From an uncultured Pelagibacteraceae bacterium (lineage in GTDB: Bacteria; Pseudomonadota; Alphaproteobacteria; Pelagibacterales; Pelagibacteraceae), in NCBI GenBank assembly GCA_902625945.1, contig CACODG010000004.1:29569-93568 (forward strand): a stretch of DNA of 64,000 nucleotides, written 5' to 3'. How positions within the stretch are numbered: the stretch's first letter is position 1; the number at the start of each line of letters is the position of its first letter. The translations under genes and the position numbers were made by a program. Below are positions 27,441 to 51,108 of this stretch, in pieces. The notes under the pieces were generated by a model. The model was given only the letters and a program-made list of their open reading frames with translations. It had not been told where the DNA came from and searched no databases.

Positions 27441-28604
27441 ATGAATATTCACGAACACCAAGCTAAAGATATTTTGAGAGAATTTGGAGCACCAGTTTCA
27501 AAAGGAATAGTTGTTTTTTCTGCAAAGGAAATCAAAAAAAACATTTCAAAACTAAGTGGTTCAAAATTTGTTTTAAAGGCCCAAATTCATGCTGGAGGAC
27601 GAGGAAAGGCAGGCGGCGTGAAACTAATACAAAACAAATCTGAATTAGAGTCAGAAGCTAATTTAATGATTGGAAAGATATTAGTAACTCATCAAACAGG
27701 GCCAGAGGGTAAAGAAGTAAAAAGGCTATACATTGAAGAGGCATCTGACATAGCAAAAGAATTTTATCTTTCTTGCGTCATTGATAGAGAAAGTTCAAAA
27801 ATTGCTTTTATAAGCAGCACCGAGGGAGGAATGGATATAGAGAAGGTTGCTAAAGATTCGCCTGAAAAAATCATAACTAATAAAGTTGATTTTAATTTTG
27901 ATGGCCCTGATGAAAAAGAGATAGGCAAAATTATTTCAATATTTAAATTAAATGAAAATCAAACACAAACTGCAAAAAAATTGATAAAATCTTTGTTTAA
28001 AATTTTGATAGAGAAAGATGCAAGTTTAATTGAAATCAATCCTCTAATAATAACAAAAGATGAAAAATTAATTTGCCTGGATGCCAAAATGAATTTCGAT
28101 GATAATGCTATTTTTAGAAGACCTGAAATTTTAAAATTAAGAGACTTGAGCGAGGAAGACCCAGCGGAAATTGAAGCAAGTAAATATGATTTAGCTTATA
28201 TCAAACTCAATGGGTCTATTGGATGTATGGTCAATGGCGCAGGATTAGCAATGGCAACAATGGATATAATTAAATTATATGGAAAAGAACCTGCTAATTT
28301 TTTGGATGTAGGCGGAGGTGCATCAAAAGAAAAAGTGACTGCAGCTTTTAAGCTTATTCTTGCTGATAAAAATGTTAAAGGAATTCTAATAAATATCTTT
28401 GGTGGTATAATGAGATGTGATGTTCTTGCTCAAGGAGTTATAGATGCAGCAAAACAAGTAAATTTATCTGTACCTCTTGTGGTAAGGTTAGCAGGGACAA
28501 ACTTTAAAGAAGGAAAAGAACTTTTAGACAAATCGAATTTAAAAATTTTGTCGGCGACTGATTTGAATGATGCTGCAAAAAAAATCGTAGATGCAATTAA
28601 ATAA
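27441..28604 (+). CDS. sucC: succinyl-CoA synthetase beta subunit
   Basis: [54 protein letters not shown]. Confidence 0.98.
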
Positions 28605-49275: not shown

Positions 49276-49869
49276 TTACCCAATTAAAAAGATGCCTAGT
49301 TTTGAAAATAGATTTTTAATTTCTAAATTACTTTTATTAATTAGAGATGTTTTATCTTCATTAACCCCAACTACTTTTTTAATATTTATATCTTTTTCAT
49401 CACAGAAATTAAATAAATCTTTAATTGTGCACATATGTAAGTTCGGAGTGTTATACCAAGTATTAGGGAGTGTTTTTGTAACTGGCATTTTACCAAATAG
49501 TAAAAGTTTGGTTCTTACCTTCCAATAACCAAAATTTGGTATTGAAATCACAACTGATTTTCCAATCCTCAATAAATCTCTTAAAACTTTTTCAGGCTCA
49601 AAAAAAGCTTGAAGTGTTTGACTAAGAACGACATAGTCAAAAGATTTATCTGGAAATTGATGCAACTCTGTCTCTGCATTACCTTGTATAACCGATAGAC
49701 CTTTGTGAATACATTGTTGTACATTCTCTTGACTAAGCTCCAAACCACGAACTTCTATGTTCTTCTCTTTTTTAAGAAGGCTCATTAAAGAACCGTCACC
49801 ACAGCCTACGTCAAGAACTCTGGTATTATCAGATAATAAATCTGCTATAACTTTAAATTCTTTTTTCAT
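49276..49869 (-). CDS. metW: MetW methionine biosynthesis protein
   Basis: [42 protein letters not shown]; adjacent metX. Confidence 0.95.
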
Positions 49870-50992
49870 TTTTAAATTTTTCGTGCATTGAGTCTAAAAA
49901 ACTTTTAAGAGTTTTCAAAAATTCAGGTTCATCAAGTAAAAAGGAATCATGGCCTTTATCAGTTTTAATTTCAGAGTATGAAACATCCGCCCCTGAAGCA
50001 TTCAACGCTATTACTATGTCTTTATTTTCTTTTGTTGTGTAAAGCCAATCTGAAGAAAAAGATATTATTAAAAACTTTGTTTTTTGATTTCTGAAAGCTT
50101 CAGTTAGACCGCCTTTAAATTGTTTAGAAAGATCAAAATAATCCATAGCTCTTGTTATATAAAGAATAGAATTGGCATCAAATCTTTCTGTAAAAGCATA
50201 ACCTTGATGTCTTAGATAACTTTCTACTTGAAAATCTGCATTGAAACTGAATTCATAATCTGCTTTTTCTTGTAATTTTCTTCCAAACTTTTCTTGCATG
50301 CCTTTTTCAGATAAATAACTTATATGACCAACCATTCTTGCTACAGCTAATCCATTTTTTGGTTGAACATTTTTTAAAACATATTTTCCATTATCCCACA
50401 CAGGATCAGCCATTATTGCCTGACGTGCTAATTCATTTAAAGCTATATTTTGCGCGCTATGACTAGAACTGCAAGCTATAGGAATTGCTGAAAAAGTTTT
50501 ATCAGGAAATGTTATACAAAATTGTAAAAGCTGCATACCACCCATAGACCCACCAGTTGCGCACAAAAGTTTTTTTATGCCTAGATGTTCGAGTAATGAT
50601 TCTTGTGCTCTTATCATATCTTTTATAGTTATAACTGGGAAATCTAATCCATAAGGTAGTTTTGTTTCTGGGTTTATATTTTTAGGACCCAGAGAACCCA
50701 TGCAACCACCTATAACGTTTGCGCAAATAACAAAATATTTATTAGTATCAATAGCTTTTCCGGGACCAACAGCAGTAACCCACCATCCTTCTTTATTTGT
50801 TATAGGGTTAATCCCTGTAACAAATTGGTCTCCTGTAAGTGCATGAAATACGAGAATAGCGTTATCCTTATTTTGATTTAATTTTCCGTAAGTTTCGTAT
50901 GCGAGCGGAAAATTGTTTATAGTCTTTCCGCAATCAAGTTTAAGTGATTTTGCAACATTTAATTTCTTTATATTTTCAATTTTTACATTCAT
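49853..50992 (-). CDS. metX: homoserine O-acetyltransferase
   Basis: [35 protein letters not shown]; start placed at ATG 50992 (ORF remains open to ATG 51022). Confidence 0.94.
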
Positions 50993-50994
50993 CC

Positions 50995-51020
50995 AAAAAA
51001 AAAGCCCAGCTAAACTGGGC
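50995..51020 (-). terminator. intrinsic terminator/attenuator between SAM-II aptamer and metX
   Basis: Minus strand: GCCCAG-tttag-CTGGGC followed by 9 T. Confidence 0.88.
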
Positions 51021-51023
51021 ATC

Positions 51024-51075
51024 CCCTTTTTAGCTACATTTATTATGCGCTTGCAATATGGTTAAATCAGCGCGA
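51024..51075 (-). promoter_or_regulatory. SAM-II riboswitch aptamer controlling metX
   Basis: Minus-strand TCGCGCTGATTTAACCATATTGCAAGCGCATAATAAATGTAGCTAAAAAGGG, nearly identical to the marine metagenomic SAM-II aptamer used for the published crystal structure (as remembered), located upstream of metX. Confidence 0.95.
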
Positions 51076-51078
51076 GTT

Positions 51079-51108
51079 ATTCTTACTAAATCATCATAAA
51101 CTTGTCAA
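51079..51108 (-). promoter_or_regulatory. candidate sigma70-type promoter for the SAM-II/metX transcript
   Basis: Minus strand perfect -35 TTGACA (51108-51103), 17-18 nt spacer, weak -10 TAAGAA/AAGAAT; implied start coincides with the aptamer 5' end. Confidence 0.55.

Follow-up and report, generated by a model that had tools for sequence, protein, structure and literature searches.

A SAM-II aptamer and an intrinsic terminator complementary to its ligand-binding strand: a probable transcriptional OFF riboswitch before metX in Pelagibacteraceae

We asked how metX is likely to be controlled in an uncultured Pelagibacteraceae bacterium in which this gene is preceded by a SAM-II aptamer with an intrinsic terminator behind it, as found in the 64,000-nucleotide stretch of DNA analyzed here (the window). 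The metX SAM-II RNA is treated in the literature as a translational switch acting by direct occlusion (PMC6061858, PMC9373788, PMC10907184) and has been described as a rare translational member of its class (PMC6061858). The original prediction for this locus had called SAM-II usually translational, which is wrong, as most SAM-II elements are predicted to be transcriptional (PMC2258182, PMC1273637); those of alpha- and betaproteobacteria are stated to be mostly transcriptional rather than translational (PMC2258182), and terminators behind SAM-II were described from the start (PMC1273637). For P. ubique, the SAM-II elements of metX and bhmT have also been said, in a statement on the class, to act on transcription (PMC5069961). 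A transcriptional SAM-II switch as such is therefore already known, and the question here was whether, and by which pairing, the metX leader could work as one.

Read directly on the minus strand from position 51083, the leader runs AGAATAACTCGCGCTGATTTAACCATATTGCAAGCGCATAATAAATGTAGCTAAAAAGGGGAT-GCCCAG-TTTAG-CTGGGC-T9-GG-ATG, and upon re-reading of the sequence all originally predicted positions were found to be exact, including AGCTAAA at 51035–51029, the stem, the loop and T9 at 51003–50995. The SAM-II aptamer occupies 51024–51075 (minus strand, as for all features below) and carries AGCUAAA at 51029–51035, being the SAM-binding P2 strand and at the same time the 5′ strand of a putative antiterminator; its GCUAAA is part of the SAM-II consensus, as seen in the alignment to RF00521. 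The terminator hairpin GCCCAGUUUAGCUGGGC covers 51004–51020 (−10.8 kcal/mol), with stem arms at 51020–51015 and 51009–51004 and the loop at 51014–51010, and is followed by its U9 tract at 50995–51003. UUUAGCU at 51008–51014, spanning the terminator loop and the start of the 3′ arm, is the complement of AGCUAAA and would form the 3′ strand of the antiterminator. In computed folds of the complete leader, the AAAAAGGGG stretch (within 50995–51030) can also pair with U9 and thereby lengthen the terminator hairpin.

The regulated gene would be metX, encoding homoserine O-acetyltransferase (49853–50992, with its ATG at 50992; NCBIfam NF001209, 511 bits with a cut-off of 331), and the overlapping metW at its end (49276–49869; Pfam PF07021, E = 1.2e-73) is probably co-transcribed with it; SAM-II thus stands upstream of a methionine/SAM gene. 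Transcription is expected to start just 5′ of P1, where a consensus scan gave a candidate sigma-70-like promoter, TTGACA-18-AAGAAT, at 51079–51108, although such a match alone occurs at chance frequency. The −10 element of this candidate is weak, and the TTGACA region is kept in most of 38 leaders of the genus.

The aptamer matched the Rfam SAM_alpha model (RF00521) at 51083–51009 with E = 0.00079 and 25.6 bits, below the gathering score of 36 bits. That gathering score was reached in none of 197 genomes of the family, 149 of which have matches, and the best score in the family was 35.4, so that the threshold misses all of the SAR11 SAM-II elements found; the low score in the window is consequently a property of SAR11 aptamers, with the gathering score being a database threshold and not a biological feature. 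P1, the GAUUU of L1, UUGCR and the GCUAAA 3′ strand are all present. The 52-mer printed in PMC8494917, a characterized metX RNA, matches two relatives exactly (L011 and L012), and GATGCCCAGTTTAGCTGGGCTTTTTTTTTGGATG comes immediately after it. The window copy is identical to it at 49 of 52 positions, and its near identity to a SAM-binding RNA suggests that it binds SAM as well. We take the printed RNA to be the 2QWY construct. Structure 2QWY is reportedly the crystal structure of the Sargasso Sea metX SAM-II riboswitch by Gilbert et al. 2008.

The hairpin has six to seven pairs, five of them G–C, a short loop and U9 directly after the stem, as in an intrinsic terminator. As originally predicted, AGCUAAA complements the UUUAGCU of this terminator and the two pairings are mutually exclusive, sharing aptamer and terminator strands as in attenuation, which the sequence, the folds and the register table described below all confirm. 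The pairing is longer than the seven nucleotides first noticed, having eight pairs including a U–G, plus an inner GGG/CCC helix in which AAGGGG at 51023–51028 provides the 5′ part and CCC at 51017–51019 the partner. In a pseudoknot-free calculation, the antiterminator reached −12.0 kcal/mol including the inner helix and −13.8 kcal/mol with one more U–G pair. The antiterminator was the minimum-energy fold of transcripts with their 3′ end at 51008 or 51004, and past the U tract the terminator dominated; blocking the aptamer 3′ strand, as the pseudoknot does when SAM is bound, left the terminator alone. The computed energies are thus bistable, with the profile of an attenuator; in some variants (L025 and L046) the computed terminator was more stable than the antiterminator. 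A pseudoknot in which both pairings coexist in metX was judged, by reasoning rather than computation, to be sterically impossible, with a connector of zero length between UUUAGCU and GGGC.

We then determined how well these elements are kept. Of the 151 genomes of the genus, 102 carry CCCAGTTTAGCTGGG, always as a single copy, and among the near-complete genomes it is present in 11 of 12, while the reversed control gave no match; a repeated or mobile terminator was rejected on this single copy number. In a first conservation table, where leaders had been chosen to contain TTTAGCTGGGC, the last hairpin columns were invariant by construction, whereas leaders selected by Rfam contained TTTAGCTGGGC in 38/38 cases. 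Selection by the MetX protein only (61 genus genomes searched, 51 with the gene and 50 with a readable leader) gave SAM-II, hairpin and U8–9 in 50/50 leaders. The loop was UUUAG in 48 of these 50, as in 38/38 of those selected by Rfam, and GCCCAG-UUUAG-CUGGGC-U9 was present in 44. The others had a GCCCGG stem, with A–U changed to G–U (two leaders), CUGGGU with U8 (one), a UUUUAG loop (one) or one loop mismatch (UCUAG in L456, UAUAG in L457).

Recent descent does not explain this conservation, since the 50 fourfold-degenerate sites of metX compared in 38 genomes were randomized, having a mean pairwise identity of 0.44 and no invariant site. Of two ordinary terminators examined in 30 close genomes of this genus, one showed at least 12 hairpin variants and the other exactly 6, compared to 6 variants in 50 leaders for the metX hairpin, a contrast that is moderate, with the second ordinary terminator also being well conserved. 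Nor is the conservation coding. AUG1 (51020–51022) is in frame with metX, but among relatives the aptamer–hairpin linker differs in both sequence and length, and in about 12 of them AUG1 is lost while the hairpin stays.

The register table for metX covers eight pairs, (U)AGCUAAA:UUUAGCU(G), which are made in 14–16 of 16 distinct leaders, and in every register with the partner slid by one to three positions, at metX as at the other loci treated below, most pairs break. L016 and L046 have lost the outer A–U pair with no compensating change, and the last A–U becomes A–C in L014. In the alignment of relatives called for by the original prediction the loop is conserved, but metX shows no two-sided covariation, GCUAAA being constant throughout the SAM-II class and moreover required by our locus search pattern.

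Other SAM-II loci of the family are located before metY, betaine-homocysteine-methyltransferase-like genes and metF. These carry an unrelated terminator stem, ACCACCG/CGGUGGU (core CCACCG/CGGUGG), and still keep a complement to the aptamer core, GCUAAAGCG facing CGCUUUAGC or CGCUUUAGU (consensus GCUAAAGCG:CGCUUUAGY). Nine pairs form here in 22–23 of 23 distinct leaders, and the three GCG:CGC pairs, both strands of which differ from metX, are not part of the fixed core. When loci were selected by SAM-V alone, 28/28 tandem leaders of the genus kept CGCUUUAG[CU] behind linkers that differ in sequence, and one mismatch each was seen in a pair of tandem leaders from a different genus. The genome of the window has a second SAM-II of its own (L002, G000:C1:28025-28099 and 27921-27985), followed by a terminator and then SAM-V, before metY.

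The Rfam search gave 110 SAM-II loci, 71 of them with a terminator by the criterion used. A strong complement was present in 67 of these 71 terminators, which pair-preserving shuffles equalled in no more than about 2% of trials, and four had no clean match (L056, L057, L088 and L081); the alternative pairing is thus kept across metX and second-family loci, except in these four, in L456 and L457 and in the two mismatched tandem leaders. For the leader of the window, pair-preserving terminator shuffles reached the observed complementarity in 0/300 trials. A 464-kb part of the window's genome contained 31 terminator-like hairpins, and UUUAG occurred in both of those behind SAM-II and in none of the 29 others, while two specific hairpins would be picked out of 31 by chance about once in 465. 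In a pattern scan, the relatives carrying the element were almost all Pelagibacteraceae. The few matches outside SAR11 (Bacillus, Ignavibacteria and others) were taken as chance, as was a match in the viral collection (L287), which consists of two ordinary terminators next to a phage gene.

Could control instead be translational or dual, through SAM-dependent occlusion of AGGGG in P2a as has been proposed for the crystallized metX RNA, with the hairpin being a constitutive and partly leaky terminator as in Sinorhizobium meliloti metA, where an SD within the riboswitch acts on an AUG past a terminator? This is the strongest of the alternatives, although we regard it as unlikely. The SD-like AAGGGG lies at the aptamer's end, its AGG is kept in every variant of the genus, and inspection of the leader revealed no SD beside the metX AUG at 50992, from which AAGGGG is separated by about 30 nucleotides and the hairpin. 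The S. meliloti metA leader is similarly built from SAM-II, an SD, AUG1, a terminator and an in-frame AUG2, with its SD being required (PMC9373788). However, the AUG1 abutting AAGGGG is not conserved in SAR11 and is probably not a start codon, and the kept AGG is also accounted for by P2a together with the inner antiterminator helix. A constitutive terminator, moreover, needs no conserved loop complementary to the aptamer, which is kept here despite replacement of the whole stem, and the explicit SAR11 antiterminator has no counterpart in S. meliloti, where the authors could predict none (PMC9373788).

Much less probable is a post-transcriptional role, where the terminator loop would invade the aptamer and switch SAM-II off in the finished mRNA without deciding termination. 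This possibility draws on the SAM-II/SAM-V leader of P. ubique, in which SAM-II no longer responds to SAM when the linker is present: full-length RNA refolded in vitro has a SAM-blind SAM-II, linker oligonucleotides restore the response, and the authors call the loss puzzling (PMC11508383). In an mRNA that is already complete, however, the terminator has been read through, and neither stem nor U tract would have to be conserved, yet both are kept in 50/50 leaders. The U82–U90 tract and C68 of that study agree in position with the U9 tract and the loop of two relatives (L166 and L165), and pairing between aptamer core and terminator loop may offer a concrete explanation for the published inactivation. 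Hardly any weight is left for a conserved terminator of no regulatory meaning (ending leader-derived small RNAs, for example, such as are known from SAM-II leaders in S. meliloti; PMC9373788) with a coincidental aptamer match, since even though seven complementary nucleotides can arise by chance between AU-rich pieces, the match should then be lacking behind SAM-II as often as present, contrary to what the 71 terminators and the tandem leaders revealed, and the genome background, the shuffles, the matching second terminator family and the saturated fourfold sites all speak against it.

We therefore consider it highly likely that this leader is a transcriptional OFF riboswitch for metX, and with it metW, in which the SAM-bound aptamer would lead to the terminator and the SAM-free one to the antiterminator. 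RNA polymerase would start just 5′ of P1, whereupon the SAM-II aptamer folds. With SAM bound, GCUAAA(AAGG) would be held in the P2 pseudoknot and triplex, allowing GCCCAG-UUUAG-CUGGGC-U9 to form the intrinsic terminator, and metX would not be transcribed. In the absence of SAM, GCUAAA would be free and the emerging UUUAGCU could pair at once with (U)AGCUAAA, aided by the GGG/CCC helix. The antiterminator could then be in place with four nucleotides of the terminator still to be made, and transcription would run into metX. The SAM contacts described for a SAM-II domain, U46, A47 and A49 in the numbering of PMC11508383, fall in or beside GCUAAA; the switch strand is the ligand-binding strand, and therefore ligand binding and antiterminator formation would be directly exclusive. 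Of the mechanism originally proposed, the choice between antiterminator and terminator is hence backed by conservation, by energetics and by the other SAM-II loci, where the terminator stem has been exchanged but the complement to the aptamer retained, whereas the transcriptional mode in itself is not new.

Compared with the SAM-II elements of metA and metZ in other Alphaproteobacteria, the metX leader shares the aptamer, the intrinsic terminator and the OFF logic (PMC1273637, PMC2258182, PMC9373788), and differs in the pairing. None of 14 terminator-bearing leaders sampled from other Alphaproteobacteria used the whole GCUAAA core; in 11 of the 14, the best complement was that of GGUCGG after the core, being part of P2a, with the 5′ arm of the terminator, although shuffle values for single leaders in this group were weak (0.02–0.35). 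The short P2a of SAR11 metX aptamers may be the reason why the core strand took over. The SAM-II/SAM-V tandem leaders, including the metY leader of the window genome, likewise have SAM-II followed by a terminator (PMC9481103) and the same kind of core complement, GCUAAAGCG:CGCUUUAGY, while metX lacks SAM-V and has another stem, a shorter linker and an AUG right after the U tract. In L011 and L012, the relatives with the exact Sargasso Sea 52-mer, the 3′ end of the construct runs straight into the conserved terminator, and the putative antiterminator reaches back into the SAM-binding strand. We thus think it likely, if somewhat less so than the switch itself, that the crystallized ‘translational’ metX SAM-II is natively an attenuator whose antiterminator captures the SAM-binding strand in the terminator loop, and that this register is a Pelagibacteraceae platform distinct from the P2a/5′-arm platform of other SAM-II. 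The pairing register, found here only in Pelagibacteraceae, and its place directly behind the ‘translational’ model aptamer look new, with an earlier mention in Gilbert 2008 or Poiata 2009 being possible.

Further SAM-II arrangements were seen within SAR11, where another genus has SAM-II before metX without any hairpin. In genus g4 (L021, L023, L024, L026, L031 and others) the metX leaders have U7–9 and a conserved CUCACAAUUC in place of the hairpin, complementing GAAUUGCGAG of the aptamer at 9 of 10 positions, which suggests a different expression platform. Two loci of the same genus (L059 and L063) have a SAM-II-like element that ends in GCUAAAGGAGGCAAAUG and has a good, normally spaced SD ahead of the gene behind it; this element is likely to be a truly translational SAM-II. 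In genus g5 (L055, L060, L061, L081 and L111), SAM-II is found directly before metW and not metX (checked by HMM in L060), and the hairpin-U elements there match the aptamer core poorly.

The metX SAM-II RNA has been a model for structural, NMR, FRET and simulation work, read through SD sequestration. Should a terminator be its native platform, the timing that matters would be that of a race during transcription, in which SAM binding competes with an antiterminator taking the ligand-contacting nucleotides, and studies of this RNA would need to be reread and repeated with the approximately 30 nucleotides that follow. SAR11 is among the most abundant groups of bacteria, and the metX SAM-II attenuator may therefore be among the commonest in the sea.
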